Of a stretch of DNA of 23,732 nucleotides, positions 22-23,067 are shown in pieces. Each line of letters begins with the position of its first letter. Position 1 is the first letter of the stretch. The notes beneath the pieces were generated by a model, which was given only the letters and a program-made list of their open reading frames with translations, searched no databases and was not told the origin of the DNA. The stretch is taken from the IMG/VR virus record IMGVR_UViG_3300043438_000237, positions 1 through 23,732 of that record. One strand, 5' to 3'. A program made the position numbers and the translations under genes. Source of the stretch: a virus.

Positions 22-468
22 ATGGCTGAGTTTTCAACTGGCGTTACTACGTTGCTTGCACGTATGGACACAAACCCGAGCGAGTTTTTTGACGGCGCAT
101 ATAAGTGGTCATTCTTTACCGCAGAAGGGGTTAAAGACATACTGACAGACGATGAGAAGACCGCGATAAGCAACAAGCTCACAGAGGTTCGCCGAATAGC
201 TTTCGACCAAATGGTCATGCAAACTTTATTGGATAGCGAAGCAGAGAGAGAATCAAGGCTAGGGTTAGGGAACAAAGCGAAGATGGCACTACAGGGTAGC
301 TCGTTGGTGACTCCCATGACTACATTTGAACAACAACTACAACAACGAATGCAAAACCAATACGCAAACGCAGCCCTAAACGCAGCGCAAAGCCAATACG
401 CAAACGCAGCGCAAAGCATGTACCCAAACGGCACCGGCACCGCTACCAGTAGATTCAGCTCTAAATGA
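22..468 (+). CDS. Unknown phage protein with Gln/Asn/Ala-rich C-terminus
   Basis: 148 residues, function not recognised. The first ~90 residues look like a compact, mostly helical domain with many charged residues. The tail from about residue 103 to 140 is low-complexity, rich in Gln, Ala, Asn and Tyr, with a repeated QYANAA unit encoded by a direct DNA repeat. There is no signal peptide or membrane segment. A GAGG ribosome site about 8 nt before the ATG supports the start. The stop overlaps the polymerase start by 4 nt (ATGA), so the two are probably translationally coupled and this protein may serve replication. That role is inferred only from position. Confidence 0.8.
   Translation: MAEFSTGVTTLLARMDTNPSEFFDGAYKWSFFTAEGVKDILTDDEKTAISNKLTEVRRIAFDQMVMQTLLDSEAERESRLGLGNKAKMALQGSSLVTPMTTFEQQLQQRMQNQYANAALNAAQSQYANAAQSMYPNGTGTATSRFSSK
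357..417 (+). repeat. Imperfect short direct repeats inside the first gene
   Basis: A 17-bp sequence (ccaatacgcaaacgcag) occurs at 357-373 and again at 393-409. A 13-bp sequence (cgcagcgcaaagc) occurs at 381-393 and 405-417. They encode the repeated QYANAA/NAAQS segment. The pattern fits slippage-driven expansion of a low-complexity protein tail. Confidence 0.75.
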
Positions 469-2291
469 ACATCATTACTTTAGACTTTGAGACCTATTAC
501 TCGCAGGAGTTTAGTCTCACCAAGGTTACCAACGAAGAGTACGTGCGCTCTGCAGAGTTCGAGGTTATCGGTGTTTCAGTACAGGTAAATGGCGATAAGC
601 CCGAGTGGTTCAGCGGGCCTATGGAACAAATCGCTGTGTTCCTACGCATGTTCAATTGGGAAGCCAACCTAGCCCTAGCGCACAACGCTGCGTTCGATGC
701 GTCAATCCTGACGTGGGTGTTTGGCATTAAGCCGAAGGGCTGGCTGGATACTTTGTCGATGGGTAGGGCACTGCACGGTACTGAGGTGGGTGGTAGCTTG
801 GCTGCGCTAGCGCAATACTATGGGGTGGGTGTAAAAGGTACTGAGGTCATCATGGCTAAGGGACTACACCGCATAGACTTCCCCGCCGACCAGCTTGCGA
901 GGTACGGTGAGTACTGCTGTAACGACACGGCAATGACGTATGCGCTATTCCAAAAGATGAGCGTTGACTTCCCGCCGATTGAGTTGCGCCTGATTGACCT
1001 GACCATCCGCATGTTCTCTGAGCCGTCACTGTACTTAGACACGAGGATACTGAACACTCACCTACGGGATGTCAAGGAGAAGAAGGCGAACCTGCTGAGC
1101 AAGATGCTGATTGAGAAAGATCAGTTGATGAGCAACCCACAGCTAGCCAAGATACTTGAAGACTTTGGCGTTGACGTACCTATGAAGGTGAGCCCTGCTA
1201 ACGGTAAGCAGACGTATGCGTTCTCCAAGACTGACGAAGGCTTCAAAGCATTGCTTGAGCATGAGAACGTACTTGTACAGGCCATCGTAGCCGCTAGGCT
1301 TGGGGTGAAGTCAACCATTGAGGAGACACGGACAGAACGCTTCATTGGGATTGCCTCCCGAGGAGCCATGCCAGTTCCCTTGCGGTACTACGCTGCCCAC
1401 ACAGGCCGTTGGGGTGGTGACGACAAACTAAACCTACAAAACCTGCCACGCAGTTCACCGCTAAAGTATTCCATCGTTCCCGCAGATGGCTACGTAATCC
1501 TAGACTCAGACTCATCGCAGATCGAAGCCCGTACCTTGGCGTGGCTAGCGGGGCAAGACGACTTGGTGGATGCGTTTGACCGTGGCGAGGACGTTTACAA
1601 AATCATGGCATCGGCTATCTACGGTAAGGACATTGCGGAAATCACCAAGGACGAACGGTTCGTTGGTAAGACTACCATTCTTGGTGCAGGGTACGGCATG
1701 GGTGCAGCGAAGTTTAAGTTGCAGCTAAAGAACTTTGGCGTTGACGTTACGCTCGAAGAAGCCAAGCGAATCATTGATACCTACCGTGCTACATACCCAA
1801 AAATTGTTGCGTTATGGGCGGCGGCGAATAATGTACTTAAAGCCATGTTGCGGAATGCGCAGACAAGTTTGGGGCGAGACGATCTGCTAAAGGTAGATGG
1901 GAAACTTGGAATCCTTTTACCAAATGGCCTACGCCTGAAGTATCCAAACCTACGCCTACGTGAGGACGAGGAATCCGGCAAGGTTGAGGTTGTGTATGAC
2001 ACCAAGAAGGGCAAGGCTGTTATCCCCAATCGTATCTACGGCGGGAAGGTAATCGAGAACGTATGCCAAGCCCTAGCCCGTATCGTAATCGGTGAGCAGA
2101 TGTTGCAGATTGCTAAGAAGTACAAAGTTGTAATGACGGTGCATGATGCTATTGCAGTAGTAGTACCCAAGGCCGAGGCCGACACCGCCAAAGAGTTTGT
2201 TGAGATGTGCATGCGCATGCGCCCTAAGTGGGCACTGGGGTTACCCCTCAATTGCGAAGCAGGGTATGGAGAGAGTTATGGAGACTGCTAA
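465..2291 (+). CDS. Family A DNA polymerase with 3'-5' exonuclease domain
   Basis: 608 residues; the phage replicative polymerase. The N-terminal DEDD-type proofreading exonuclease shows D7-x-E9 (DFE), an N74...D78 motif and D154 in CNDTAMTY, all apparently intact. The polymerase domain has motif A with D349 in DSSQIEAR, including steric-gate E354, and motif B with R398 and K402 followed by GAGYG. Motif C is VHDA with D561. Aligning on K402 (E. coli K758) and Y410-G411 (Y766-G767) puts Leu406 at the E. coli Phe762 position. Motif C has Ala562 where Pol I has Glu883. There is no 5'-3' exonuclease domain, as usual for phage enzymes. The gene overlaps its upstream neighbour by ATGA and is followed at once by a 40-codon ORF. 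Confidence 0.97.
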   Translation: MNIITLDFETYYSQEFSLTKVTNEEYVRSAEFEVIGVSVQVNGDKPEWFSGPMEQIAVFLRMFNWEANLALAHNAAFDASILTWVFGIKPKGWLDTLSMGRALHGTEVGGSLAALAQYYGVGVKGTEVIMAKGLHRIDFPADQLARYGEYCCNDTAMTYALFQKMSVDFPPIELRLIDLTIRMFSEPSLYLDTRILNTHLRDVKEKKANLLSKMLIEKDQLMSNPQLAKILEDFGVDVPMKVSPANGKQTYAFSKTDEGFKALLEHENVLVQAIVAARLGVKSTIEETRTERFIGIASRGAMPVPLRYYAAHTGRWGGDDKLNLQNLPRSSPLKYSIVPADGYVILDSDSSQIEARTLAWLAGQDDLVDAFDRGEDVYKIMASAIYGKDIAEITKDERFVGKTTILGAGYGMGAAKFKLQLKNFGVDVTLEEAKRIIDTYRATYPKIVALWAAANNVLKAMLRNAQTSLGRDDLLKVDGKLGILLPNGLRLKYPNLRLREDEESGKVEVVYDTKKGKAVIPNRIYGGKVIENVCQALARIVIGEQMLQIAKKYKVVMTVHDAIAVVVPKAEADTAKEFVEMCMRMRPKWALGLPLNCEAGYGESYGDC

Positions 2292-2414
2292 ATGAGAGTC
2301 CTGTGGAAGTACATCAACAAGAAGACACGGGATGTACATTTTTCGTGGGAGCGGTGGAGTCGTGGCGATGCGTATGGGTTTTGGGAATTTAGGTTACCGA
2401 AGGAAGAATTATGA
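2292..2414 (+). CDS. 40-residue micro-ORF between polymerase and nuclease
   Basis: An ATG lies directly after the polymerase TAA. The frame stays open for 40 codons, and its TGA overlaps the nuclease ATG by 4 nt (ATGA). The product is basic and aromatic-rich (five Trp, six Lys, six Arg), begins MRVLWKYINKKTRDVHFSW and ends RLPKEEL. It fills the otherwise empty 119-nt gap exactly, and its end-to-end packing resembles the other couplings in this module. The function is unknown; it could be a small nucleic-acid-binding or polymerase-associated peptide, which is a guess. Confidence 0.6.
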   Translation: MRVLWKYINKKTRDVHFSWERWSRGDAYGFWEFRLPKEEL

Positions 2415-3076
2415 GCATCGTTTGGTCATTCAGTTCGCTGAAAACATTTCAGCAATGCCCTCGCAAGTACTACTACGCTAAGGTTGCACCGGACAGGATT
2501 CGGGAGCCCGACACCACAGCAACGCTTTACGGCAAGGCTGCACATACGGTAGCAGAGGATTACATCGGCAACGGGACACCTGTACCACCGCAGTTCGCAT
2601 ACCTGAAACCCCTGCTGGAGCAGCTAAACGCTATCCCCGGCGAGAAGCTAGTCGAGGTGAGGCTAGGGCTTACTAAAGACTTACAAGCCTGTGACTTTGA
2701 CGCACCGGATGTTTGGTGGCACGGTATTGCCGACTTGGTAATCGTCAACGAGGAGAAGGGCTTAGCCCATTCCATCGACTACAAGACAAGCAAGAACGCA
2801 CGGTACGCAGACGTGAAGCAGCTTGACCTAGTGGCTGCGGGGATTTTTGCTCGCTGGCCTAACATTGTTAGGGTGAAGTCAGGATTGCTGTTCGTGGTCA
2901 GCAAGGAGTTTATTAAGGCCGAGCACCACGCAGACATGAAGGACGTGTACGTAGCTGCACCTGCTAAAGATGTTGCAAGAATTGAGGCGGCGTTGGAAAA
3001 TGGGGTTTGGAACCCAATCAGCGGCCCACTGTGTAAGTTTTGTGCAGTCAAAGACTGTGAATTTAACCGGAGTTAA
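2411..3076 (+). CDS. PD-(D/E)XK nuclease, Cas4/RecB-like, likely with Fe-S cluster
   Basis: 221 residues. This matches the Cas4/AddB/RecB-type exonuclease fold. It has an early CPRKYYY element (Cys16), a GKAAHTVAE motif with His45, an active-site block GIADLV (Asp108) then DYKTSK (Asp123, Lys125), and a downstream Gln137. Three C-terminal cysteines (Cys208, Cys211, Cys216) with Cys16 form the usual four-cysteine pattern for a 4Fe-4S cluster. The family degrades or resects DNA ends. Here it probably serves phage recombination, replication-intermediate processing or host DNA breakdown. It overlaps the micro-ORF by ATGA. No CRISPR repeats or other cas genes are present, so it is not a CRISPR component here. 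Confidence 0.9.
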   Translation: MSIVWSFSSLKTFQQCPRKYYYAKVAPDRIREPDTTATLYGKAAHTVAEDYIGNGTPVPPQFAYLKPLLEQLNAIPGEKLVEVRLGLTKDLQACDFDAPDVWWHGIADLVIVNEEKGLAHSIDYKTSKNARYADVKQLDLVAAGIFARWPNIVRVKSGLLFVVSKEFIKAEHHADMKDVYVAAPAKDVARIEAALENGVWNPISGPLCKFCAVKDCEFNRS

Positions 3077-3675: not shown

Positions 3676-3957
3676 ATGCCATACGTAAACAAACCACGCC
3701 CCTACAAAAAGGAATACCAGCAACAAGTCGAACGAGGTGAAGCACCTACTCGTGCGGTGCGACAGAAAGCCCGTGACGACATGGATGCTAAGGGTATCGA
3801 CCGTACAGGTAAAGACATCGACCACGCTATCCCCCTGAGCAAGGGCGGCACTAATGCGCCGAGCAACTTGAAGTTGAAGAGCCCTAGTGCCAACCGTTCC
3901 TTTACACGCAACTCAGACCATACCGTCAAGGTGAACAAACCCAAGAAGAAAAAATGA
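3676..3957 (+). CDS. Compact HNH endonuclease-like protein
   Basis: 93 residues with a very basic N-terminus. The HNH core is visible as DIDHAIPLSKGGTNAPSNL (about residues 54-72), giving the conserved D-H pair, the GG turn and the N-x-L helix, followed by N79-R. It lacks the CxxC zinc-knuckle cysteines of many HNH proteins, so it is a minimal variant. A C-terminal Lys-rich tail (KPKKKK) could bind DNA. An AAGGAA ribosome site precedes the ATG. The stop overlaps the helicase start (ATGA), so the nuclease and helicase are likely co-translated and may act together on DNA. Confidence 0.85.
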   Translation: MPYVNKPRPYKKEYQQQVERGEAPTRAVRQKARDDMDAKGIDRTGKDIDHAIPLSKGGTNAPSNLKLKSPSANRSFTRNSDHTVKVNKPKKKK

Positions 3958-5342
3958 CCCTATCAGAATACGGATGGCCTCGCCCACACGGGTTCACACC
4001 ATTCGACCATCAGAAGATCACAGCAGAATTTCTTACAACGAACCGCAAGGCGTTCTGTTTCAACGAACAAGGTACTGGAAAGACTGCATCAGTTATTTGG
4101 GCAGTCGATTATTTGATGCAACGAGGGCTGCTAAAGCGAGTACTAGTCGTTTGCCCCTTGTCGATTATGAAGTCAGCTTGGCAGCAAGACCTGTTTAAGT
4201 TTGCCATACACCGTACAGTCTCCGTGGCCTACGGTAGCGCAGCTAAGCGCAAGCAGATCATCGCCGGTGATGCCGAGTTCGTCGTCATCAATTTTGACGG
4301 GTTGTCTATTGTCAAGAACGAAGTCCTAGCGGGTGGGTTTGATTTGATCGTAGTCGATGAAGCCTCTGCGTATAAGAACGCACAGACAGACCGTTGGAAA
4401 GTATTGCGTGACCTGAACAAAGTAATCAAGGGCTTGTGGATGCTGACGGGCACACCTGCTGCTCAGTCCCCTGCGGATGCCTACGGTTTGGCTAAGCTGG
4501 TTAATCCAACTGCGGTGTCCCCGTTCTTTGGGCAGTTCAAAGATACCGTGATGAACAAGGTGAGCTTGTATCGCTGGATACCAAAACCTGACGCACAAAA
4601 AACCGTACATCGTATCCTCCAACCTGCCATAAGGTTTGAGAAAGCCCAGTGCTTAGACCTACCTCCTGTTACGCACGTAGACCGTGACGCTCCGCTGACG
4701 CCCCAGCAAAACAAGTTCTATCAAGTGCTCAAGAAGCAGATGCTAATGGAAGCTGCGGGTGAGGAAGTCTCTGCGGTAAATGCTGCAGTGCAACTAAGCA
4801 AGCTGTTACAAATTGCTGGCGGTGCTGTATATACAGATACCAAGGAAGTCATTGAGTTTGACGTATCTAATCGGTTAAATGTGGTGCAGGAAGTCATCGA
4901 CGAATCTAGTCATAAGGTACTCGTTTTTGTACCCTTTACCCATACCATAGAGCTGCTAAAGAAGCACCTCGAAAAGAGCAACATAACGTGTGCTGTTATC
5001 AACGGTTCCGTCAGTGTAAACGCTCGGTCTGACATTGTTAAGGACTTCCAAACCACCGACATGGTTAAGGTTCTAATCATCCAGCCGAAGGCCGCATCCC
5101 ACGGGTTAACACTTACTGCCGCCGACACAATCATCTGGTACGCTCCGTGTACAAGTGTTGAAACTTACCTGCAAGCCAACGCTCGTATTGATCGACCGGG
5201 ACAACTAAACAACATGACCATCGTGCACATTTCAGGTTGCCCTGTGGAGACAAAGGTCTACTCGCTGCTGCGTAGCAACATCGGTAACCACCAAAAAATA
5301 ATTGATTTGTACAAACAAGAAATTTCTTCTGAAAGCCCTTGA
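3954..5342 (+). CDS. SNF2/DEAD-like superfamily 2 helicase
   Basis: 462 residues, an ATP-dependent DNA translocase or helicase. Motif I (Walker A) is GTGKT at 40-44, motif Ia is VLVVCPLS near 63-70, motif II is DEAS at 135-138 and motif III is LTGTP at 164-168. The second RecA lobe has VLVFVPF near 322, GLTLTAADTII near 384 and motif VI QANARIDRPGQ at 407-417. The arginine-rich RIDRPGQ block is typical of SNF2-like proteins. It is short for the family, with few inserts, as phage versions often are. It is coupled to the upstream HNH gene by ATGA. Roles in fork remodelling, recombination or displacing bound proteins are plausible but inferred. Confidence 0.93.
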   Translation: MTLSEYGWPRPHGFTPFDHQKITAEFLTTNRKAFCFNEQGTGKTASVIWAVDYLMQRGLLKRVLVVCPLSIMKSAWQQDLFKFAIHRTVSVAYGSAAKRKQIIAGDAEFVVINFDGLSIVKNEVLAGGFDLIVVDEASAYKNAQTDRWKVLRDLNKVIKGLWMLTGTPAAQSPADAYGLAKLVNPTAVSPFFGQFKDTVMNKVSLYRWIPKPDAQKTVHRILQPAIRFEKAQCLDLPPVTHVDRDAPLTPQQNKFYQVLKKQMLMEAAGEEVSAVNAAVQLSKLLQIAGGAVYTDTKEVIEFDVSNRLNVVQEVIDESSHKVLVFVPFTHTIELLKKHLEKSNITCAVINGSVSVNARSDIVKDFQTTDMVKVLIIQPKAASHGLTLTAADTIIWYAPCTSVETYLQANARIDRPGQLNNMTIVHISGCPVETKVYSLLRSNIGNHQKIIDLYKQEISSESP

Positions 5343-5366: not shown

Positions 5367-5395
5367 AAGAACATAAACAACTAGGAGTGAGAAAC

Positions 5396-5818
5396 ATGGA
5401 CAACGAAGTTCAGGGGGAAAAGACCCCTCCAAACCTTGCGCAGCTTACTGAAATCTACATCAAGATACGTGATGCAAGAGCAGAGCTAAAGGGCAAGTTC
5501 GACCAAGAAGACTTGGGCCTCAAAGAACAAATGGGTTTGCTAGAGACCTCCATGCTTGACGCATGCAAAGACATGAACGCCGACAGCGTTCGTACCCCAC
5601 ACGGCACGATCATTCGCTCAGTTAAGTCACGGTACTGGACGAACGATTGGGATTCAATGTACGACTTCATAGAGAAGCATGGTGCATTTGGCCTGTTAGA
5701 GAAACGACTTCATCAAACCAACATGAAAGACTTTCTCGCTGAGAATCCTGACATTCTGCCTATGGGCTTGAATGTTGACAGTGAATATACCGTGGTAGTT
5801 AGACGTTCTAAATCTTGA
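5396..5818 (+). CDS. Unknown phage protein, coiled-coil-like N-terminal half
   Basis: 140 residues from the ATG at 5396. I prefer this to the in-frame GTG at 5387 because an AGGAG site (5383-5387) sits 8 nt before the ATG and would overlap the GTG. Residues ~15-60 are charged and helical (IKIRDARAELKGKF...), likely a coiled coil. The C-terminal half has a short beta-rich stretch (TPHGTIIRSVKSRYWTNDW), a helical part and a final strand YTVVVRRSKS. Such proteins often sit beside SSB or recombination genes in phages, but I do not recognise a named family. It is the first gene after the promoter at 5339-5366. Confidence 0.8.
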   Translation: MDNEVQGEKTPPNLAQLTEIYIKIRDARAELKGKFDQEDLGLKEQMGLLETSMLDACKDMNADSVRTPHGTIIRSVKSRYWTNDWDSMYDFIEKHGAFGLLEKRLHQTNMKDFLAENPDILPMGLNVDSEYTVVVRRSKS

Positions 5819-5828
5819 AAGAAACCAA

Positions 5829-6725
5829 ATGAGCAACCTTACAGTACTCGACCAAGCCGTCCCTGACTTCCTGCAATCCAGCGGAGTTAGTGACCTTACA
5901 AAATCCCTGATGGGCAACACAGGCACCAAGCGTATCGTTCCGAAGAACGGTATCTTCCGCAAGGAAATTGGTGGCAAAGAGATGGGCAAGGTGAAGGGTG
6001 ACCTCAACGTCATCATCGTCAACTCATCCCCCAAAGTCGGGCGTATCTTCTACGCAAAGACATGGACACCTGATGCCGAGCCAACTGCACCTGACTGCTT
6101 CTCCAATGACGGTCAAGCTCCTGACGCTAAAGCTGGTAACCCACAAGCTGCTCGCTGCGACAACTGCGAGCGCAACATTAAAGGTTCAGGCCAAGGTAAC
6201 TCCAAAGCTTGCCGCTACTCTCGCCGTATCGCTGTTGTGCTTGAAGATGATTTCGGCACTGCGCTTGAAGGTGAAATCTATCAAATGAACTTGGCATCCA
6301 AGTCTTTGTTTGGAGAGAGCCCTACCGAGAACACACACATGTTCGAGAGCTACGTTAAGTACTTGGGCAACAACGGTAAGAGCCTTGACTGGTACATCAC
6401 CCGTCTGAGCTTCAACGAAGACAATGACAATCAGTCCATCTTGTTTACACCTGTTGAGCATATTAAGCGTCCGCAATATGACGTGGTTGCTAGAGTAGGT
6501 AATACACCTGCGGTGCAGAAGCTGATGACCATGACCCCGTATGAGGCACAAACATCGGGCGCACAGAAACTTGCTGCACCTGCTGCGAAACCAGTAGCCG
6601 AAGCTAAGCCTGTTGAAGACGCGATTGAAGAGCCGAAGAAACGTGAGAGCAAGAAGGCAGATGTCGCCCCCTCACCTAAGAGAGACCTTGATTCCGTGCT
6701 TAAAGCATGGGGCGATGAGGAGTAA
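5829..6725 (+). CDS. Putative ssDNA-binding-like replication protein
   Basis: 298 residues. The central region (about 55-225) is rich in beta-strand-like segments. It has four cysteines, C90, C110, C113 and C128, which could form a zinc site. The last ~60 residues are an Ala/Pro/Lys/Glu linker ending in DLDSVLKAWGDEE. A disordered linker with an acidic, aromatic-containing tip is the hallmark of bacterial and phage SSBs, where the tip recruits partners. The place between helicase and primase-helicase fits. No sequence family is recognised with certainty, so the SSB role is inferred from architecture and position. The ribosome site before the ATG is weak (GAAAG). Confidence 0.75.
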   Translation: MSNLTVLDQAVPDFLQSSGVSDLTKSLMGNTGTKRIVPKNGIFRKEIGGKEMGKVKGDLNVIIVNSSPKVGRIFYAKTWTPDAEPTAPDCFSNDGQAPDAKAGNPQAARCDNCERNIKGSGQGNSKACRYSRRIAVVLEDDFGTALEGEIYQMNLASKSLFGESPTENTHMFESYVKYLGNNGKSLDWYITRLSFNEDNDNQSILFTPVEHIKRPQYDVVARVGNTPAVQKLMTMTPYEAQTSGAQKLAAPAAKPVAEAKPVEDAIEEPKKRESKKADVAPSPKRDLDSVLKAWGDEE

Positions 6726-6728
6726 CGC

Positions 6729-6974
6729 ATGAGCTACGGATACAGCCAGCGATTAGTGGATGCCAATAATAAGGCTGATGCTAATTCGTGCGGCGTGTAT
6801 TTGGGTAGGCGTTGTATCAAACTTGGCGTTCCTGTTAGCAACGTAGCACACGAGCTCGGCGTAAGTCGGGCGACTGTCTACAACTGGTTTTGGGGGCTAG
6901 TAGCACCCAGTCCTACTCATGCTGACAAGATCGCCGAGTTTATACGCACTCTCAGAAACAACAAATATGTCTAA
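6729..6974 (+). CDS. Small helix-turn-helix DNA-binding protein
   Basis: 81 residues. The segment at about 34-57 (VSNVAHELGVSRATVYNWF) is a clear helix-turn-helix: the ELGVS turn is followed by a recognition helix. This resembles Cro/CI or excisionase-like small regulators. A strong GAGGAG site lies inside the last codons of the upstream gene. Its end overlaps the start of the primase-helicase gene by 8 nt. It may control early/late switching or be a replication-initiation accessory. With no integrase or opposing repressor gene in the window, a lysogeny role is unproven. Confidence 0.85.
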   Translation: MSYGYSQRLVDANNKADANSCGVYLGRRCIKLGVPVSNVAHELGVSRATVYNWFWGLVAPSPTHADKIAEFIRTLRNNKYV

Positions 6975-9816
6975 TTTCAATCTACTTGACGCAGTGCTTC
7001 CCACTGAGGGGCGTTACTGTGTACTAGGGGTTGGGCGGTATGTAGATCAGCAGTTTGTCGATACTCGAGAAGAGCTAGACGAGATTGCAGCGGACTTTGT
7101 AAGCAGGAATGTAGATGCGTATTTTGGGTGTGCCAAGTTCGGCCCCCTGAATAAGCGGGTGCATGAAAACGCTACTTATTTCAGAGCGGTGTGGATGGAC
7201 ATTGACTGCGGCCCTACAAAGGCTGTACCCGATAAACGGGGTATCGTCAATGGGTACATAGACCAAGCCGTAGGGCTAGCTGAATTTAAGAAGTTCTGTA
7301 TTGCAGTCGGCCTACCGCAACCAATCTTGGTGAGCTCGGGGTATGGTATCCATGCCTACTGGCTGCTCGAGGAGACTATATCTCGTCGGGAGTGGGAACC
7401 GTTAGCCGAGCGGCTGCGGGAGCTGTGCGTAGAGCAAGGCTTCATAGTTGACCCATCTGTGTTTGAGGCTTCTCGTGTGCTGCGCATCCCGGGCACATTT
7501 AACTTCAAGCAGGAAGAACCGAAGCTCGTCGAAGTACTTAACGAAAACAGTGCTCGCATCCCGTATGCGCAACTGAAAGAATTGTTAGGTGCAGCCGAGC
7601 CCAAACCTGATCGCCCTGACTTCATACCTCAGTCGATGAGCCCCATGATGGAAGCGTTGTTGGGCAACAAGGTAAAGCGGTTCAAGACAATTATGATGCG
7701 CTCGGCTAACGGCACAGGCTGTAACCAGCTACTCAACTGCTACGAGAACCAAGCGACCATTGAAGAACCGTTGTGGCGTTCTGCGTTATCCATTGCTACG
7801 TTTTGTATCGACCGAGATACCGCCGTACATAAGATTTCTAAAGAGCACCCGGGTTATGACCGATACGAGGTAGAGCTAAAAGTAGAGAACCTGTTAAAGA
7901 ACGGTGGGCCACATCACTGCGCTACGTTTGAGAAGTTAAACCCAACAGGGTGCGATGACTGCCCCCACAAAGGGAATATCAAGTCACCAATTGTTTTGGG
8001 TATTGAGATAGAAGAAGCAGACGCAGAAGACAACGAAGTAGAAATAGTTACCGAGGAAAGCACCGAGATAGTAAGCATCCCTGAGTATCCGTTCCCGTTT
8101 TTTCGGGGTAAGAACGGTGGTATTTACCGCAGGGCAGAAGATGATGAGGGAGACCCAGCACTAGTTTACGAGCACGATTTATATGTGGTGAAGCGGATGA
8201 AAGACCCGTCAGCGGGTGAGATGGCGCTATTCAAATTGCACCTGCCGCACGATGGAGTTAAGGAATTTGCCATATCCACAGCAGTTATATCCGCGAAGGA
8301 CGAACTGCGAAGGGTACTAGCACAGCACGGGGTAGTTGCACACCCAAAGCAATACGAAAACTTAGCCAACTTTGTGGTTACGTTTATTAAAAATTTACAG
8401 TACGTTAGGAGAGCAGATACTATGAGAACACAATTCGGATGGGTGGAGAAGGACAGCAAGTTCATCATGGGCGACAAAGAGATTACCAAGGACGGTACGT
8501 TCTACAGCCCACCGACTACTGCTACAGAATTTTTTGCCGACAACATCCACGCCAAAGGCGAGTTTGACAAGTGGAAAGAAGTCTTTAATCTATACGCACT
8601 ACCGGGCATGGAGCCACATGCGTTTGCAACACTCACAGCGTTCGGTTCACCGCTCATGCCGTTTACTGGTTTGGATGGAGCTATCCTTAACGTGATCTAC
8701 GAACAAGCGGGTTCAGGCAAGTCCACCATCTTGCGTATGTGCAACAGTGTGTATGGCGAGCCTAAGAAGATGATGGCGATTGAGAAGGACACAATCAACG
8801 CAAAGATGCAGCAGTTAGGTGTTATGAACAACATGCCAAACACCATCGACGAGATTACCAACATGCGCCCCGCAGAATTCTCGGACTTGGCCTACGGTAT
8901 CAGTCATGGCAGGGGTAAGAACCGCTTGAAAGGTTCAGAGAACGCAATGCGCCTCAACAATACTACATGGAAGAACATGACGCTGGCATCGGCTAACGCT
9001 AGCTTTCACGAGAAGCTATCTGCGTTTAAGAGCACACCGGATGGCGAGTCTGTGCGTCTGATGGAGTACAAGATTGAGCCCAACGACGTTATCGGCGTAG
9101 CCCGTGGTAAGGAAATGTTTGACCACCAATTGCAAGAGAACTATGGTCACGCAGGTGAGATTTACATTAGCTGGCTGGTGAACAACTTAGAGGAAGCTAA
9201 AGGATTGGTTAAGAAGGTTCAGGCCCGCATCGACAAAGAAGTTCAGTTTACAAGCCGGGAGCGTTATTGGTCAGCGCAAGCAGCATGCAACATCACCGGT
9301 GGATTGATTGCCCGTAGCCTTGGACTGCACGACTACGACATGGGCAGAGTCTACGCTTGGATGAAGACCATGCTGTCCGAAATGCGCCTCGATGTAAAAC
9401 CCCCAAGTGCAAACCCAGTCACTGCGCTAGGCGAGTTCATCAATACCTACATCTCCAATGCCCTCGTGGTCAACGGTGAAGTCGATGCCCGAAGCAACCT
9501 GTCGGCTATGCCAATACTGGAACCCCGTGGAGAGTTACTGATACGCTACGAGCCAGATACCAAAGAGCTGTACGTGGCAGCAAAACAGTTCAAAGAATTC
9601 TGCGTTAAGCAGCAGACCAACTACCGCAATACCATAGCGGAGCTCACAGCTATGGGTGTATTTATTGAGTCCACCAACAAGCGGATGTCAAAGGGCATGC
9701 GGGTTGTATCACCCCCAGTGCGTGTATTACGGTTTAACGCATCCACATCCGAGTTTCTGCAGATGGACACTTTCATAAAGCAAGATGAAAATAGAGACAG
9801 TCTCGTATCAGATTAA
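6967..9816 (+). CDS. AEP-type primase fused to a P-loop helicase
   Basis: 949 residues from the ATG at 6967. An upstream in-frame ATG at 6919 would add 16 residues lying wholly inside the HTH gene, and I rejected it. Residues ~1-200 look like an archaeo-eukaryotic (RepB/PrimPol-like) primase: metal-binding MDID (D78, D80), SSGYGIHAYW (H129), then RVLRIPGTFNFK. A Cys/His cluster at about 316-334 (HHC...CDDCPH) is a likely zinc site. Residues ~370-530 resemble the DUF927-type pre-helicase region. The ATPase has Walker A AGSGKST at 581-587 and Walker B IDEI at 627-630. It should prime and unwind DNA at the fork, combining two replisome jobs in one chain. Confidence 0.92.
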   Translation: MSNFNLLDAVLPTEGRYCVLGVGRYVDQQFVDTREELDEIAADFVSRNVDAYFGCAKFGPLNKRVHENATYFRAVWMDIDCGPTKAVPDKRGIVNGYIDQAVGLAEFKKFCIAVGLPQPILVSSGYGIHAYWLLEETISRREWEPLAERLRELCVEQGFIVDPSVFEASRVLRIPGTFNFKQEEPKLVEVLNENSARIPYAQLKELLGAAEPKPDRPDFIPQSMSPMMEALLGNKVKRFKTIMMRSANGTGCNQLLNCYENQATIEEPLWRSALSIATFCIDRDTAVHKISKEHPGYDRYEVELKVENLLKNGGPHHCATFEKLNPTGCDDCPHKGNIKSPIVLGIEIEEADAEDNEVEIVTEESTEIVSIPEYPFPFFRGKNGGIYRRAEDDEGDPALVYEHDLYVVKRMKDPSAGEMALFKLHLPHDGVKEFAISTAVISAKDELRRVLAQHGVVAHPKQYENLANFVVTFIKNLQYVRRADTMRTQFGWVEKDSKFIMGDKEITKDGTFYSPPTTATEFFADNIHAKGEFDKWKEVFNLYALPGMEPHAFATLTAFGSPLMPFTGLDGAILNVIYEQAGSGKSTILRMCNSVYGEPKKMMAIEKDTINAKMQQLGVMNNMPNTIDEITNMRPAEFSDLAYGISHGRGKNRLKGSENAMRLNNTTWKNMTLASANASFHEKLSAFKSTPDGESVRLMEYKIEPNDVIGVARGKEMFDHQLQENYGHAGEIYISWLVNNLEEAKGLVKKVQARIDKEVQFTSRERYWSAQAACNITGGLIARSLGLHDYDMGRVYAWMKTMLSEMRLDVKPPSANPVTALGEFINTYISNALVVNGEVDARSNLSAMPILEPRGELLIRYEPDTKELYVAAKQFKEFCVKQQTNYRNTIAELTAMGVFIESTNKRMSKGMRVVSPPVRVLRFNASTSEFLQMDTFIKQDENRDSLVSD

Positions 9817-10043: not shown

Positions 10044-10070
10044 CCCCCGGCTAATCCCCGGGGGTTTTTT
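10044..10070 (+). terminator. Rho-independent terminator between convergent modules
   Basis: CCCCCGG at 10044-10050 pairs perfectly with CCGGGGG at 10058-10064 across a 7-nt loop. Six T residues (10065-10070) follow. It ends rightward transcription just past the last + gene, and its T-run overlaps the stop of the leftward giant gene. The 89-nt space between the convergent genes holds this and a smaller hairpin and nothing else I can see. Confidence 0.88.
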
Positions 10071-13000
10071 ATTCCCCGCGCCCTTTGCGTTCGGCTTCAT
10101 CAGCAGCTAAGCGTGACGGCAGTAAAGCATCAGCCACTAGTGCGGCGTTCTTTTCGTTGAGCGTAAATCCGCGCCAAGATTCCCCCCGTTGCTTCGCACG
10201 TTTTTCCATAGATTCCACAAGGTTGTCTACGGTAATCTCAGCAAAGGGATACTTCTTGTTGAACTCATTACGCTTGTCTAAAAGTTTTACGTAGGCATCA
10301 GCATTGCCATTCCTGTACTCCCTGTCGAGGTTGTTCAGGATTTGGTTTCTTTCGTTTTTGATTTTTTGCTCTAGGCCGAGTACCTTGAAGGTAGCGTACT
10401 GTGTGTTAGCCAACAAGTCAGGCCGGAAGCCTATTGATTGGGCAATTAACTGTCCAGTGCTAAACGCATCCTCAGATAAGATTTGTGCACCCTTATTGTC
10501 CTTTGCGCCTTTACTAGCAAGTTCATGCGCATTAACGAAGTTACGGAACCCAGCAGGAGCCCACTTCTTAACCGCTTTAGTGTAGTCCCCTTGCATAGCG
10601 GCGTCAAAACCGTCTGCCATAGTCAAAAGCATGTTAGCAGATGGGCCTAATTTTTCTAACACTATGGCGGTTGCACTTTCCCGCAGTGTTGCAGTTTCCT
10701 TGGAGTCCCTAAAAAACAAGTTATTTGCGCCAGTACGACCAGCTACGTCTAGTCCGGTAAAGGCATTTACAAACCCACGGTCAACTATGTCGGATAGCTT
10801 TTTGCCGCCGATAGATACACCGCCTAATTGGTCATCTAAAAACTTAGTGCGGAAGAAAAGTTCAAAGTCCATAGATTTAAGGTCTTCGGGCAGGTCATCC
10901 CGTATTTCATCCCACGCAGCGCCGAGCAACCCCATAACGGTACTAAACATTGGTAACCCGGAAGCGCCAGCAAGTATGAACGTAGTGCCTAGAGTACCAA
11001 AGAACTTTTGCGCAGCTTCTCCACGAGTGCGTTTGTCCATTGGCTTTATCATTTCCCGGAAGTTTCTAACCAGAAATGTTGCTATGTGCAGTGGGTACAT
11101 CATGAACTGGGTCAGTACTTTACCGCCGGAGCTGTTCATAAAAGCAGGTCGTGCGTATTCGCCGTAGTTGCCTAGTGCTTCATTGGTGTCGTACACCGCC
11201 TGCTCAACCGCACGGTTAAAGTTCTTATGCTCCTTCATGTTCAGGTTAAACGAAGCCATGAACATCATCTCTCGGGATATACGCTCTGAAGCGTTCATCA
11301 ATCCACCAAATACGAGTGCATCTAAAGCATTGTTAGCCAACTTCACTTTTGGAGACTTTAGCTCGTCTGAAGGAGTAGCCTTGTATTCAAATATAGACCC
11401 TGCCTGCGTAGCTGTAAATAAGTCCATAGCTGCCGCTGCGTTATATGCTCGACGTTCTTCGGGAGACAGCTTTGAATGTTCCATAGATGGAGAAACCCAA
11501 GACCTAGTACCGTCGCTATTGGTTTTGTGCGCACCAAGCTGGTTCCACACCTTGAGCATTTTGCCCATTTCCTTAGTGGCGTTAAACGCGCCGTAGCGAG
11601 ACAGCACCGGTAGGCCAGTCTGAAAAACACTTAGAGGCTGCAGCAAAGCAGAAGATGCTCCACTCAAATAGTAGATGAACGATGCCTTGTTTAGCCCTCC
11701 GGCTACCCTAGCCGCAAAAGATTGTGCTTTAGGTGCTAGTGCAGCATCCACACGTTCCTTCATCTCATTTACAAAAGGCTCAAACTCAATTTGACCTTTG
11801 ATGGAATCCTCCGCTGCCGACAATGAAGTGCGGAGTAACGGGGAGTATTTGATACGCGCAAGCTGAGTAGCCATACGAGCAGACGCATGGGCTGTATTGC
11901 GTAGTACATCAGGCCGAAAACCAGCAATACCTTTACGATGGATAAACTGCTTACGGAAACTTTGGTCGGGCATTGTCTCTAGAAAAGCCTGATAGATAGC
12001 ATCCTTCAAAGAGTCATTAGCCTCGGGGCTACCCAAGTCGGTTTTATCGATTGCGCCGAATACTTCGGAAAGCATGTTGCCTTCACCCTGAGAGTACGCT
12101 TTCTTACGCAAAGCTCGGATGTCGTTGCCACGCTCGAATTCTCCGTCGGAATACAGTTCAGCTAGCTTCTCGTCTATACGCTTTTCCCACGCAGAATCTT
12201 TTTCGCCGTCTTTGCGCTTTAGTTGCTCTGCGGCAAACTCCCGTGCCACGTTGTCACGCTCGGCCTCAGTTTCTGCCATAAAGAACTGACGAGTCTTGCC
12301 TTCGCCCATTGACAGCCAGAAATCACCGTCACGAACTAGGGCAAAGTACGGGCTGATCTTACCGCCGCGCTCAAATACAGACCTAATCTTTTTCATCAGG
12401 TTTGCTTTGTCCAGCGCATTCAACTTTGAATTATTTACTTGGTCATCTAGCAACTTGGACAGGTACTTGGACAGGTTACCAAAGTGATCTCGGATTTGTG
12501 TATATACACGTTGACCTTCGGGGCCAAGGTCTTCCCACATTTTGTCTAATGCAGGACTGCGTTCCATAGTGTCGATAGACGCTGGGTCTATCTCAGCTAG
12601 AGTAGCTACAGAAGTAATCTTATTGAGCTTTGCTGACAACTCAGGGTCTGCTCTGAAAGCACGCTCTACATCGTTGGAAAGCTCACTAGCACCACGCAAT
12701 AGCTGGTTAGTCATGCCCGCCATTTTCTGCATGAGCTTGTACGTATTCTGTAGCTCAGGCGCATCATTACCAGCCCAGTCAACTAAAACTTGAGTTGGAG
12801 GTATTTTTACCAACAAATTACGCTTAGCGGAATTAGCCCTTCTCCATAGGGCTCGCAAGATAGGTACAACCTTACTAGGGTCCTGCATCATCTGAATAGC
12901 TGATACACCTTTAGCAGCCTTAGCCGCTTTGTCTGAAGTCTCAAACTTAAAGTTTGCCTCCGCAACTGCTTTATCTAGCTGTTGTTGGCTACGTGCGCCA

Positions 13001-16000
13001 GCTTCAATTTTTGCTGGTTCTTCGTCTTCTTCTATTTTGGTTGACTGCAGGACTCTGCCTTTGTTTTCCAGTTTAGTCTGCAACTGCATGTTGCGAGAAC
13101 CCTTTGCCGATAGCAACCTGTCTGAAGCCACAACCAAGTCCATGAGCGCGTTTTCTTGCTGTACAGCCATGCCAAAGAACTTAGCAATCGTATGCACAAA
13201 CTTGGTAAATGCGCTCGAGTCCTCTCCGAACCCTTTAGTATCCATAAGGAACTTTTGGAATGTCTCGTCGCTCATACCGTAAGCAAGAAACTCATCCACG
13301 TCGGTGAACACACCGGACTTCTCTAGACTTGCAATATACGCAGGTAACTTACCCGAAGCCTTGAGCTCGTTAAAACGCTGTTGAGCGTTCCCCATAATCA
13401 TTATGAGGTCCATAGTGGAGGCTACTACGTCGTTAGTTTTGCTAACTCCTTGGCGTATAGCAATCTTCCCTAGCCGTATCTTTTGACTAGTAGCTGCGTG
13501 CAGTAGCTCATGAAGCACAACGATATTGTTAACACCCTGCATGTCGCCAAAACTTTCACCGCGAACATAGACTGTACGGTCGCCCGGTACATACGCACCA
13601 AAAGCAGTACCCCACTTAGATGCTTCCCTTTTTTGCAAAGAGCTCGGTGTAGGGTCACCCTTCTCTAAGACTACAAACTTGATGCCGCCCAAAGCTCCGC
13701 GCAAACGCTTGGCAAGGAATTTTTGAAACACGTTGCCTGTCTTCATGATGTGTGAAGCAGCTTGCACACCATTGATAAACCCAGTGAACTTAGTATCAAC
13801 TTTACTTTGACCCACTTTAGAAGCAGTTAATACCCGCGCCCCTACTCGGTAATCCTTAGAGTCAACTTCGTTGTCTAGCAATTGCTGAGCATAGGCTCTA
13901 GCTGCTCTGGGTTTATCTGAGTCGTTAGCAGTTTTGTATATTTGCTGCGCCGAGTTCCTTGCACTATTTTCGTCTGGGTTATTGTTGTAGTTATTGAGTA
14001 AGTCATCTAAGAGCTCAACTTCTTCCCGTGATTCTGGGTCAAGCGCTTCCCGATCAATAGTAGGTGCTTCGACAGGTGCTTCAGTAGATGCCTCGGCTAC
14101 TGTAGTCTCAGCCGCTACTTCAGGCTCCACAACTGATTCTGTTGCTGGTGCAGGCTCCGCTACGGAGGTTTCGGCAGGGGGCAGCTTGGCTTTTAAGGCT
14201 CTGTACAGCGCACTCAGAGCTTCAGCCCGTACTCCTTTAGGGCTACGTTCTTTAGGCATCCGCCCATCCTTAGACCGCAAAGAGTTGAACTCAGCATCAA
14301 CCTTTAGCATTAGCTGTTCAATTTCAGCCGGGTCGGTTACCTCAGACGCAGCATCAATATCTATCCCCGTTACATTTGTGGTTGCGGGTGCTTTTTGTTT
14401 TTGCGTTTTTGCTTTGACGGTTTTAGGGGCTTCAGTGCCATCGGTTACGGTTCCTTCTTGAGTTAATGTATCGGGTTGTTGTCCCGTTCCCACTGTAGTC
14501 CCATCAGTAGCTGGTCCAGTAGAAACCACTGCGTCGGGCTGAGACTCTTCAATTCCTTGGGTTGTCGGTACTTCTTCGGGTTGCTCAGCCACACTAACGC
14601 CCGCTCGATCTGCTCCACCGACAGGCTCTCCAAGTGCATCGATTCCTTCTGTAGTGGGTTCAACTCCGGGGGCTGCTCGCTTCCCAGTTTTTTTGCCTGT
14701 GGGTCCGGTAACATCTAAGGCTCCTTGTTCCGCATTGAGTGCGTCGTTCTCGAGCTCAGCCTGTACTTGCTGCATAGCAGTGGCGTAAGCAGTGGCTGGG
14801 TCTACTCCAGCATCAATTAGTTCTACAGCGCGTGTCTTTACTTGCGTAGGGGTAGGTACAGCTTTGCCTGCCAATGCGTCTTGCACATTAGTTGTATCAA
14901 GCGCCGACAGGTTTTTTATTTTCTGTTCTTCCGCAGCTATGTCATCCTCGGCTAGGCGGATTGCGTCATCTGGAGCTATGCCAGTTCTTTCGAGTTCTTG
15001 TGTACGCTGTGCAACTTTTTGCTCACGGTCTTGTGAACCGGCTGGAGCCGCAGGGGGAGCTTCAGTTGTGGGGGGAGGTGGAGGAGCTTTGCCTTCCATC
15101 TGCGCTTTTTGCTCAGGTGTAAGCTGGGTGTCAGTCGAGATAGTAGTAGTGTTATCGCCAGTCTTCTTCGTGATGTCTGTTTTCTCTGGCCCTTTGCCCA
15201 GTGCAACGTCTGTAACACCTGTAATAGCACCGCCGCCAAGACCGCCTTTCAATGTGGCATCTAAAACTCGGCTAAAGTTTTTCTTGTTAAAGAAGTCTGC
15301 GTTATCCGCAACAAAGTTTTCAGCCGCAATGGTAGTAGTTTCTTGAGCTCCCTCTGTAAGACCCTCAATAGTAGCGCCTTGAGCTGCGCCTTTGCCTAAG
15401 CGTTTGTACCAAGCTGCCGCAACTGCTTCGGGGCTAATACCCGCGCTAGATGCCTTACGAAGTAAGTTAATTGGTGTAATTGCGTCTAACGCACCCATGA
15501 AAAGGCCCGCTGGAATAGCAACACCTAAGTCTTGCTTACCTGTTTTCTCGTAAATACTTTGGTATACGCTAGGTACGTTTTGCGCAGAAGAGCCAGCGAC
15601 TGCACCGACCGCCTGTTGTCGCAAGGCTATTTTCTGAGCTGCTTCCGTACCTGCTTTCATCGCAGCGGCTTTGATTTCTGCTTCAGTTGCGCCCTTAGCT
15701 ACCTGTGCCAGCACTGCTTTTTCTGCTGCTGCTCTACCTGCAGCTACTGCACCACGACCTAATACAGTGGCAGCGCCACCAGTAAACAAACTTGGCAGTA
15801 GGGAAGGGATAGCCTCTCCGACAGCTTCAACTACATAAGTGCCAAAATCGCCTAAGCCTTTGATATTCTCGTATGAACCAATTGCAGCAGGATAGAGCTT
15901 TTCAGTCTCTTTGTTGTAGGCCGCAGCCTCTTGCAATTGTTTCGTAGCGTAGTCCTCTGCGCCAACTGCTTTTCCCGCCATAGCCGGAATAATGTCTGTG

Positions 16001-16221
16001 AACAAAGACGCAATCCCGCGACTACCCCGCATAACAGATGGGATACCTGCGGATAACCCGCGAGCTCCCTGTGCTTCTACTGGAGCTGGGGCTGTTGTAG
16101 GCGTGGCTGTAGGTGCAGTTTGGCCTAGCACCTTTTTTACCGTAGCTTGAATTACTGCGGGGTCAGTACCATCAGGAAATTCTAGGATGCGCCCATCAGC
16201 CAATTCTGCTTCAATAGCCAT
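10069..16221 (-). CDS. Giant polyvalent/ejected virion-type protein with HELLH zincin motif
   Basis: 2050 residues, the largest gene here. The N-terminus (LADGRILEFPDGTDPAVIQ) is typical of large phage virion proteins. Residues ~140-260 are Ala/Gly-rich and hydrophobic. Pro- and Glu/Ala/Thr-rich linkers follow (around 375-395 and 680-720). HELLH at 904-908, with E977 in DEFLAYG, fits a zinc metallopeptidase of the MPTase-PolyVal type. Residues ~1690-1775 (RNFREMIKPMDKRTRGE..., then hydrophobic GLPMF...) resemble large-polyvalent-protein domain LPD38. Such proteins are thought to enter the host with the DNA and carry several effector activities. The start is 12 nt after the upstream stop, at the end of the late operon. 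Confidence 0.88.
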   Translation of the reverse strand: MAIEAELADGRILEFPDGTDPAVIQATVKKVLGQTAPTATPTTAPAPVEAQGARGLSAGIPSVMRGSRGIASLFTDIIPAMAGKAVGAEDYATKQLQEAAAYNKETEKLYPAAIGSYENIKGLGDFGTYVVEAVGEAIPSLLPSLFTGGAATVLGRGAVAAGRAAAEKAVLAQVAKGATEAEIKAAAMKAGTEAAQKIALRQQAVGAVAGSSAQNVPSVYQSIYEKTGKQDLGVAIPAGLFMGALDAITPINLLRKASSAGISPEAVAAAWYKRLGKGAAQGATIEGLTEGAQETTTIAAENFVADNADFFNKKNFSRVLDATLKGGLGGGAITGVTDVALGKGPEKTDITKKTGDNTTTISTDTQLTPEQKAQMEGKAPPPPPTTEAPPAAPAGSQDREQKVAQRTQELERTGIAPDDAIRLAEDDIAAEEQKIKNLSALDTTNVQDALAGKAVPTPTQVKTRAVELIDAGVDPATAYATAMQQVQAELENDALNAEQGALDVTGPTGKKTGKRAAPGVEPTTEGIDALGEPVGGADRAGVSVAEQPEEVPTTQGIEESQPDAVVSTGPATDGTTVGTGQQPDTLTQEGTVTDGTEAPKTVKAKTQKQKAPATTNVTGIDIDAASEVTDPAEIEQLMLKVDAEFNSLRSKDGRMPKERSPKGVRAEALSALYRALKAKLPPAETSVAEPAPATESVVEPEVAAETTVAEASTEAPVEAPTIDREALDPESREEVELLDDLLNNYNNNPDENSARNSAQQIYKTANDSDKPRAARAYAQQLLDNEVDSKDYRVGARVLTASKVGQSKVDTKFTGFINGVQAASHIMKTGNVFQKFLAKRLRGALGGIKFVVLEKGDPTPSSLQKREASKWGTAFGAYVPGDRTVYVRGESFGDMQGVNNIVVLHELLHAATSQKIRLGKIAIRQGVSKTNDVVASTMDLIMIMGNAQQRFNELKASGKLPAYIASLEKSGVFTDVDEFLAYGMSDETFQKFLMDTKGFGEDSSAFTKFVHTIAKFFGMAVQQENALMDLVVASDRLLSAKGSRNMQLQTKLENKGRVLQSTKIEEDEEPAKIEAGARSQQQLDKAVAEANFKFETSDKAAKAAKGVSAIQMMQDPSKVVPILRALWRRANSAKRNLLVKIPPTQVLVDWAGNDAPELQNTYKLMQKMAGMTNQLLRGASELSNDVERAFRADPELSAKLNKITSVATLAEIDPASIDTMERSPALDKMWEDLGPEGQRVYTQIRDHFGNLSKYLSKLLDDQVNNSKLNALDKANLMKKIRSVFERGGKISPYFALVRDGDFWLSMGEGKTRQFFMAETEAERDNVAREFAAEQLKRKDGEKDSAWEKRIDEKLAELYSDGEFERGNDIRALRKKAYSQGEGNMLSEVFGAIDKTDLGSPEANDSLKDAIYQAFLETMPDQSFRKQFIHRKGIAGFRPDVLRNTAHASARMATQLARIKYSPLLRTSLSAAEDSIKGQIEFEPFVNEMKERVDAALAPKAQSFAARVAGGLNKASFIYYLSGASSALLQPLSVFQTGLPVLSRYGAFNATKEMGKMLKVWNQLGAHKTNSDGTRSWVSPSMEHSKLSPEERRAYNAAAAMDLFTATQAGSIFEYKATPSDELKSPKVKLANNALDALVFGGLMNASERISREMMFMASFNLNMKEHKNFNRAVEQAVYDTNEALGNYGEYARPAFMNSSGGKVLTQFMMYPLHIATFLVRNFREMIKPMDKRTRGEAAQKFFGTLGTTFILAGASGLPMFSTVMGLLGAAWDEIRDDLPEDLKSMDFELFFRTKFLDDQLGGVSIGGKKLSDIVDRGFVNAFTGLDVAGRTGANNLFFRDSKETATLRESATAIVLEKLGPSANMLLTMADGFDAAMQGDYTKAVKKWAPAGFRNFVNAHELASKGAKDNKGAQILSEDAFSTGQLIAQSIGFRPDLLANTQYATFKVLGLEQKIKNERNQILNNLDREYRNGNADAYVKLLDKRNEFNKKYPFAEITVDNLVESMEKRAKQRGESWRGFTLNEKNAALVADALLPSRLAADEAERKGRGE

Positions 16222-20970: not shown

Positions 20971-23067
20971 TCAACGTCTGCCATCAGGCCGCACATCCAC
21001 CCGTGGACTACCTAATTGCCACTGAGTACCAAGTGTGCTTGATGTAATTCGCATTGACATCTGGCGACCACGGACACGGATATTAAGTTGCCCTGTAAAG
21101 GTGTCTAAGTCAATTGGGTATGCCTGCGTAGCCGTTACGGGCAATGAAGCCGTGGCGCTTGTACCGCCTACTGATAGGGGGTTGTTGTATCCTGAACCAG
21201 AGTTCTGTAATGGCAGAAGCTGCATAGTTAGACTTGGTGTAGTCCCGTCTGTAGAGCCACGGAAGGTTAAGTCAGGCAAAATACGCCAAGCAAACGCCAT
21301 GTTGTGCCCATCTCCAATATCGAATTGAGACGTTGTAATACTGGATTCCATAGCTACGGGAGTCCCGGTAGTGTTGTCATCTACGCCAAACTCATGATTA
21401 ACAATGTTGTTTGCATAGGTAGCTGCCATAGGATAGTCCCGCAGACCAGAATCTAGCCACGCGGTGCGAGCCAAAGTGCCGTACATCCAGATATCTTCCG
21501 AGTAGTTATAGATTACGTACCGATCAATGGTAAAGCTGTTTTCTGAGCAGTAGAAGAACCAAACCTCATTAAAGCCCTCGTTGGTACTAGCAAAAATCTG
21601 GTCGGACTGCTGCACGTTAATGTCGTTAAAAATAAACTGGCGCAAGTCGCAACGTAAGGTCTGAACCCGTCCGTCGTACTTGTAGAACTTGTCTATGCCC
21701 ATCCAATAAACAACGCCAGAGCCAATAGCAGCGGAATTAGGTCCTGCAATTGATACATTGTCGGCGAGTAACTGCGTGCTCCACACGTAAGGAGGTCCAA
21801 GGTACTGCAGGGAATAAATGGTTGAGTCCGTCCAAACCACAATCTCTTGGCGGCTTTGCAACGCGGTAACAATTTTGGAACCGTGAGACAGGCGAATACT
21901 ACCGGCTTGGTTTGTTACAGCAGGAGCCCATTCTGTGTAGGATTCTTGGTCTGACCAACGAATAAGCATGGGGTCAAACTCGGTGCTACCAAAGTCGTTA
22001 GTTCCAAAACAAATAACAAACCGACTTGCATCAGAAATAATGAAGAAATTCTGTGTCAGTGGAACGCTAGATGCTCCATTTAAAGCCGTTACCGCAATGC
22101 CTCTAGGAGAAAAAGAATGCGCCCCAGATTGAGAACCCGACGTGTTAATAAGCGCCCCGGTAGGTGTAGCAGACAGATTAAATGTAGTGCTTGATAAAAA
22201 CCGTGTGTAGTACACAGTGCCAACAACAAGCCCCGTTGGAAGAGCGCCTGTAGTCTGTATCGTAATTGCCGTTTTGTCAGGCAAGTTAATGTTGCAGGTA
22301 ACTATAGCAGGGGATGCAATGGTAATAGAAATACCAGAAGAGCCGTATCCTACAATCGCGTTCCACAAGTACAAAGGCCCCTCACGATAGCCGTACAACA
22401 GGTCTTGCCCGAAGTTTTGTTGAGTCCAAAGACGCATCGCGTAAGTAGAGTTATCGCTTGTTCCCCAGACACCTGAACCCCAAGTACCAGCACCCCAGCC
22501 CGTAGCCGGAACTGCATAGGCAGGTCCTACGTTAACTTGGTATACGGCATAGACTGTACCACCGCCTGTAGTTGACGACGTTGCTGCTGTAGCGGATGTG
22601 ATAGTGTAAGTATTAGCACTTGCACTACTGATTTCGTACTCACCAAGAATAGTAATGCCTCCGACTGCTGTGCCGCCAAAAAAGGTAACGTAATCCCCAG
22701 AGTCATAGCCACCAGCAGCGTCAGATACCGTAACAGTTGTAGAAAGATTTACCGTAGTAAACGGGTTAGTTAGCGTAACTTCTGCACGGATAGGGGTAAT
22801 GTCGTAGTAAGCCCCGCCGTTCTCAATATAGAACTTTACGTTTGTGCCTACGCCTAACAGATTCTGAGCGCCAAGCGTGATCCAATTCCACAGCGAACGG
22901 CATACACCTAGAAAAGTGTTAGCAGAGATGCGTACCCACCCACCAATCTTCTCTGGTGTACCCTGACGAAACCGAACTTTGTCCGACTCATAATAGCCAC
23001 CTTCGTTGGTGTAACGAGTATTCTCGCGGTTAACGCCGGGCTTTAGGACAACTTTTTGTAAGGGCAT
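20971..23067 (-). CDS. Large tail / packaged-DNA stabilisation-like protein
   Basis: 698 residues. The N-terminus (LKPGVNRENTRYTNEGGYY, then DKVRFRQGTPEKIGGW) is a conserved opening of podovirus tail proteins that I associate with P22 gp10-type DNA-stabilisation proteins. That link comes from family memory, not alignment. It contains two beta-rich modules. One at ~110-172 has GDYVTFFGGTAVGGIT and repeated Thr/Ser. The other at ~248-320 has GALPTGLVVGTVYYTRF then TPTGALINTSGSQSGAHSF. Both resemble small adhesion-like modules inserted in phage tail proteins. The C-terminal half looks like a beta-propeller (YIL-type strands, YDGRV, YNYSEDIWMYG). It follows the peptidase gene by 18 nt. Confidence 0.88.
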   Translation of the reverse strand: MPLQKVVLKPGVNRENTRYTNEGGYYESDKVRFRQGTPEKIGGWVRISANTFLGVCRSLWNWITLGAQNLLGVGTNVKFYIENGGAYYDITPIRAEVTLTNPFTTVNLSTTVTVSDAAGGYDSGDYVTFFGGTAVGGITILGEYEISSASANTYTITSATAATSSTTGGGTVYAVYQVNVGPAYAVPATGWGAGTWGSGVWGTSDNSTYAMRLWTQQNFGQDLLYGYREGPLYLWNAIVGYGSSGISITIASPAIVTCNINLPDKTAITIQTTGALPTGLVVGTVYYTRFLSSTTFNLSATPTGALINTSGSQSGAHSFSPRGIAVTALNGASSVPLTQNFFIISDASRFVICFGTNDFGSTEFDPMLIRWSDQESYTEWAPAVTNQAGSIRLSHGSKIVTALQSRQEIVVWTDSTIYSLQYLGPPYVWSTQLLADNVSIAGPNSAAIGSGVVYWMGIDKFYKYDGRVQTLRCDLRQFIFNDINVQQSDQIFASTNEGFNEVWFFYCSENSFTIDRYVIYNYSEDIWMYGTLARTAWLDSGLRDYPMAATYANNIVNHEFGVDDNTTGTPVAMESSITTSQFDIGDGHNMAFAWRILPDLTFRGSTDGTTPSLTMQLLPLQNSGSGYNNPLSVGGTSATASLPVTATQAYPIDLDTFTGQLNIRVRGRQMSMRITSSTLGTQWQLGSPRVDVRPDGRR

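Follow-up and report, generated by a model that had tools for sequence, protein, structure and literature searches.

The window, which is the whole stretch of 23,732 nucleotides analysed here (IMG/VR virus record IMGVR_UViG_3300043438_000237), carries a gene for a family-A DNA polymerase (PolA), followed on the same strand by further replication genes. Residues are numbered as in the window PolA (for instance, L406) or by their equivalents in E. coli Pol I (for instance, position 762). The features are listed below, with the supporting evidence in brackets.

465..2291, plus strand: PolA, a 608-amino acid family-A DNA polymerase with an N-terminal DnaQ-type 3'-5' exonuclease domain (Pfam, PHROG, fold match)
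483..926, plus strand: stretch with the exonuclease catalytic residues D7, E9, D78, Y150, and D154, equivalent to D355, E357, D424, Y497, and D501 (alignment to E. coli Pol I)
1503..1505, plus strand: D347, equivalent to E. coli 703, where Pol I has Ser; an extra motif A acid and candidate replacement of E883 (clade comparison)
1509..1532, plus strand: motif A core D349-S-S-Q-I-E354-A-R356, equivalent to D705 ... E710 (alignments)
1656..1697, plus strand: motif B on the O-helix, R398 ... K402 ... L406 ... Y410 G411 (alignments, AlphaFold2 model)
1680..1682, plus strand: L406, equivalent to E. coli F762 and T7 Y526 (codon CTT; ungapped alignments)
2055..2057, plus strand: E531, equivalent to E. 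coli N845 (Glu in 158/164 Leu762 rows, Asn in 74/74 Phe/Tyr762 rows)
2139..2150, plus strand: motif C, V559-H560-D561-A562, equivalent to V-H881-D882-E883 (alignments)
2411..3076, plus strand: PD-(D/E)XK (RecB/Cas4-like) nuclease (Pfam PDDEXK_1, E 6e-13; in 14/15 A883 loci with enough flank)
3676..3957, plus strand: HNH-like nuclease, a conserved neighbour (PHROG 4590; HNH_4 just under the cut-off; in 14/15 A883 loci)
3954..5342, plus strand: SNF2-family helicase (Pfam SNF2-rel_dom, E 4e-22; PHROG 62 DNA helicase, E 1e-105; in 14/15 A883 loci)
6919..9816, plus strand: DUF927 or primase-helicase-like protein (Pfam DUF927, E 9e-28; PHROG 8841 DNA primase/helicase, E 1e-33; in 13/15 A883 loci)

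The polymerase matches the Pfam models DNA_pol_A (E 9e-37) and DNA_pol_A_exo1 (E 3e-7) as well as PHROG 17, DNA polymerase (E 2e-92), and scores 127.3 bits against PF00476, for which the cut-off is 34.3. According to the alignment with E. coli Pol I, it keeps the catalytic aspartates D349 and D561 (D705 and D882), the steric-gate pair E354 and Y410 (E710 and Y766), the dNTP-binding residues R398 and K402 (R754 and K758), and H560 (H881), in addition to R668 and Q849. All five catalytic residues of the exonuclease domain are likewise kept, from which proofreading is predicted. The AlphaFold2 model (mean pLDDT 76.9) matches the Klenow, Taq, and Bst fragments with Z values of 19-21 over 436-519 residues. 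As in Pol I, K402 and L406 belong to a helix spanning residues 395-409, which is the O-helix, and the HDA sequence occupies the turn between the two strands of a hairpin (554-556/564-568), though with low pLDDT at residues 558-560.

Motif B of the window PolA, R398-FVG-K402-TTI-L406-GAG-Y410-G411, aligns ungapped with R754-RSA-K758-AIN-F762-GLI-Y766-G of E. coli Pol I and with K-TFI-Y526 of T7. The placement of Leu406 at the Phe762 site of Pol I, as proposed in a first-pass annotation of this DNA, was recovered in MAFFT alignments with 11, 120, and 238 rows and in phmmer alignments to Klenow chains. In the same alignments A562 (codon GCT, 2148-2150) falls on E883 with no gap inside the motif, so that VHDA is indeed found in place of the usual VHDE; a shifted alignment of either motif is thereby ruled out. 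The further statement that motif C is devoid of a conserved acidic residue is correct for E883, while the essential D882 is retained as D561, and the loss, which is real, is matched in the clade by a gained Asp at position 703.

RecB-like nuclease and SNF2 helicase genes accompany polA in 14/15 A883, 3/3 S883, and 13/13 E883 loci, counting those with sufficiently long flanks. Such neighbours are described for the Leu762 Group I polymerases, of which 70% have a RecB-like and 55% an SNF2-like gene nearby, according to Nasko 2018 (PMC6302109). In the window these genes are located at 2411-3076 and 3954-5342, and Leu at 762 is accompanied by aligned R668, D705, and K758. On the basis of residue 762 and synteny, the PolA can be placed with the Leu762 Group I kind. 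Inside the replication cluster there are also two genes, 5387-5818 (PHROG 13900, 'minor head protein') and 5829-6725 (PHROG 27714), both of which occur near polA in 13/15 A883 loci and in most E883 relatives. Further downstream, a 2050-amino acid protein is encoded on the minus strand (10069-16221), and its C-terminal part has a match to a PHROG with the annotation DarB-like antirestriction (E 1e-54). Matches to a DNA ejection protein and a virion structural protein (16234-18471 and 20971-23067, minus strand) and to an endolysin (23086-23517) suggest that the strand opposite to polA carries a late region of podovirus-like character.

A scan of IMG/VR matched at least 600 stretches, at least 599 of them encoding relatives. 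Among the best 80 of these at least 599 relatives, 79 were readable at both motifs and one was partial; 78 of the readable ones combine L762 with VHDA, and one has L762 with VHDS. The window's own record (L081) is left out of this count and would raise the VHDA number to 79. Since both residues are common to 78 of the 79 readable relatives among these best 80, a sequencing error as their source is ruled out. When columns 762, 845, and 883 were left out of tree building, the window PolA was placed in a clade of 42 non-redundant polymerases, all of which have L762, with A883 in 37 and S883 in five (support 100 with FastTree and 100/99 with IQ-TREE). The expected placement within a clade of Leu762 enzymes such as those described from virioplankton (PMC6302109) is thus supported. 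The A/S883 clade is nested among L762/E883 enzymes, and tree reconstruction gives one change from Glu to a different residue at 883; Leu762 is consequently the older character here, and the loss of E883 a single later step.

The first-pass annotation had considered the presence of both changes in one enzyme notable, a view that does not survive this comparison, as the pair marks an abundant clade, has a precedent in the DpoZ polymerase of phage phiVC8, and involves a glutamate that is lost in many Phe762 phage polymerases, where A, S, or Q is found instead. A linkage of L762 and A883 to each other is also ruled out: 36 of the 74 Phe/Tyr762 rows in the 238-row alignment are non-E883, E883 occurs among Leu762 rows, and independent pairs are trendless. 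As judged from its sequence, the PolA represents a type that is very common and has been described before, whose odd active-site residues are clade-wide and not peculiar to one enzyme.

Which compensating changes make Leu workable at 762 is a named open question in a 2026 preprint (PMC13228545), and polymerases with Leu762 rank among the most common ones in virioplankton. As Leu762 came first and E883 was lost later, the workability of Leu762 is not owed to this loss. Besides 845, the columns 734 (H to Y), 792 (to R), 802 (to W), and 846 (to N) cleanly separate Leu762 from Phe/Tyr762 enzymes, and these positions are candidates for changes that would compensate Leu762. Repeated coevolution of L762 and E845 is ruled out; Glu845 is found in 158/164 Leu762 versus 0/74 Phe/Tyr762 rows, but this involves few changes on the tree and is a clade difference.

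The part of the active site most worth attention, and a new lead beyond the first-pass annotation, is a possible exchange between D347 and A562. The interval given in that annotation begins at position 1509, the first base of the codon of catalytic D349, and D347, located two residues before D349, had been overlooked. Position 703 is occupied by Asp in 42/42 members of the A/S883 clade versus 0/30 of their L762/E883 sisters, which have Ala, Ser, or Ile. Within 313 non-redundant rows, an acidic residue is present at 703 in 117/154 non-E883 versus 2/159 E883 enzymes. Among the scan patterns feeding the alignments, A4 and A6 included N845 and A5 included HDE; position 703 was part of none, and the last scan feeding the 313-row set used patterns free of both 703 and 883. 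By parsimony reconstruction on this set, 703 gave the best result when about 600 columns were tested for changing together with 883, with 6/9 of the changes at 883 lying on the same branch as a change at 703 in the expected sense. These include two apparent reversals (L301 and L483), both of which are E883/T703. The acid accompanies the loss of E883 in separate lineages, namely, the window clade, phiVC8, whose DpoZ is independently D703/S883, and a clade of Phe762 enzymes. Positions 703 and 883 are presumably neighbours at the active site, given the known arrangement of strands in the palm of such polymerases.

In a look-ahead test with six further isolate phages, five were non-E883, and the acid at 703 was found only in VcaS_HC. 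After these six had been added, 703 was second of 607 column tests, with 4/10 changes and a naive p value of 4e-5, which treats branches as equal and comes from a reconstruction that shifted upon adding rows; with so few supported independent pairs, significance was not reached (median p 0.125). What emerges is a strong association and not an obligatory exchange, because TMA (Phe at 703), T5-like SSP1 (Ala), Erwinia 22 (Lys), and SPO1L4 (Gln), all with S883, are devoid of an acidic 703. A separate arrangement is seen in a group of Phe762 enzymes (L316, L319, L328, L341-L343) that have HDA but a non-acidic 703, which read GEHHDALLG and have Glu at 879 instead. In the literature searched, which was largely other than subscription journals, no paper on the 703/883 exchange was found. 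It is tentatively proposed, at somewhat less than even odds, that the family-A active site has a movable second carboxylate, with Glu883 exchanged for Asp or Glu at 703 in several phage lineages and the window clade being a fixed, abundant Leu762 example. If this holds, an acid would have been relocated within a textbook active site, in a way that can be tested directly.

Taken together, the best explanation, with a probability of roughly 0.75, is that the window encodes an active replicative PolA of the Leu762 Group I kind, in which L406 and A562 are clade characters and D347 would partly replace E883. The enzyme would serve an uncultured tailed phage, with the SNF2 helicase, the RecB-like nuclease, and the primase-helicase as partners, and is predicted from the residues it keeps to be active and proofreading. 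Leu406 would meet the incoming sugar without an aromatic ring and be accommodated by the rest of the Leu762 scaffold. The Glu883 carboxylate, with which at least one other phage enzyme can dispense, would have been lost once in the clade. The new Asp347 on the motif A strand might then take over part of the role of Glu883 near the metal site, which is the least certain step of the scheme, at somewhat less than even odds.

That E883 was dispensable and lost neutrally, with Asp347 a mere lineage marker of no compensating role, has a real chance of being correct, if not quite an even one. The Thermus phage Tt72 polymerase, in which Ser is found at 883, keeps 76% of its activity as the S616A mutant, in comparison to 4% for D384A and D615A (PMC9324360), so that A562 need not inactivate the window PolA either; the four S883 enzymes with no acid at 703 are in line with such a loss, and many other columns also split the A/S883 clade from its sisters. 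Against neutrality stands the distribution of the acid, which is rare with E883 and prevalent without it, arises with the loss of E883 in separate lineages, and is gone in the two apparent reversions. Decay of motif C in a degenerate or inactive polymerase is, by comparison, scarcely credible; one conserved acid of the motif is lost, yet the whole clade, whose members are 52-94% identical to the window PolA, retains D349 and D561 together with the remaining catalytic residues, and the adjoining replication genes are intact.

An unlikely reading is that of a slow, high-fidelity polymerase adapted to a phage life that is temperate or not so strictly lytic, both parts of which had been put forward in the first-pass annotation. 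It draws on a published correlation between Leu762 and temperate phages and on a Taq mutant (both as reported in PMC6302109), and the intact exonuclease residues would suit it. However, the label of slower, more accurate copying derives from this Taq point mutant and is not borne out for the window enzyme; T7 Y526L lost 97% of its activity, which made a measurement of its fidelity impracticable (PMC13228545). Native Leu762 enzymes showed primer extension in 5/8 cases (PMC9069017), and no fidelity measurement of a native one was found in the literature searched. The lifestyle claim finds no support: neither an integrase nor a serine recombinase was detected in the window, 15 longer clade records, or the phages KPP25 and RHph_TM3_14A, with three other records in that search showing an integrase above the cut-off. 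As the records may be fragments, this is an absence of support for temperate life and not a disproof. Moreover, a scan of 84,980 species genomes yielded only six records with a relative, three being short MAG contigs at 59-69% identity and two distant, and a member of the KPP25 group, phage CRPAP1904, has been characterised as lytic, its burst size being about 109 (PMC13340246). A tyrosine integrase is carried by the L762/E883 relative L195 (record G016), a point in favour of the temperate reading, so that Leu762 occurs with and without lysogeny genes.

The preferred reading, an active Leu762 Group I replicative PolA, may finally be set against known systems. E. coli Pol I and T7 gp5 have the same family-A fold and catalytic residues as the window enzyme and differ by F762 or Y526, E883, N845, and no acid at 703. 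The Thermus phage Tt72/TMA polymerase (PMC9324360) resembles the window PolA in a non-acidic residue at 883, in its case a Ser that is tolerated, but has Phe762, and in TMA Phe is found instead of Asp at 703. The DpoZ of phiVC8, for which a crystal structure is available (PMC8599892), resembles the window PolA in Leu762 (L455), a non-acidic 883 (S583), and Asp703; it differs in Phe766, a motif B insertion, Gly845, and its specificity for 2-aminoadenine, whereas the window enzyme has Tyr410 and Glu531. According to PMC8599892, Tyr766 is otherwise strictly conserved outside DpoZ. The window PolA, with Y410, is devoid of the Phe for Tyr766 replacement that marks phiVC8-like and Wayne-like DpoZ, and it reaches 27.8 bits with the NCBIfam DpoZ model, the cut-off of which is 350. 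The best matches from isolate phages, at 35-38% identity, are the polymerases of Pseudomonas phage KPP25 (Kochitakasuvirus) and Rhizobium phage RHph_TM3_14A, which have L762, E845, and helicase and nuclease neighbours in common with the window, but VHDE (E883) and no Asp at 703. The RHph_TM3_14A enzyme (L084:8001-9908) combines Leu762 with Phe at 766, where the window has Tyr, and a scan with the KPP25 PolA found only two loci. In the available parts of the papers on the Leu762 Group I or Leu I virioplankton polymerases (PMC6302109, PMC9069017), motif C and position 703 are without discussion; the polymerases described there share with that of the window Leu762, the RecB-like nuclease, the SNF2 helicase, and an origin in viral metagenomes.
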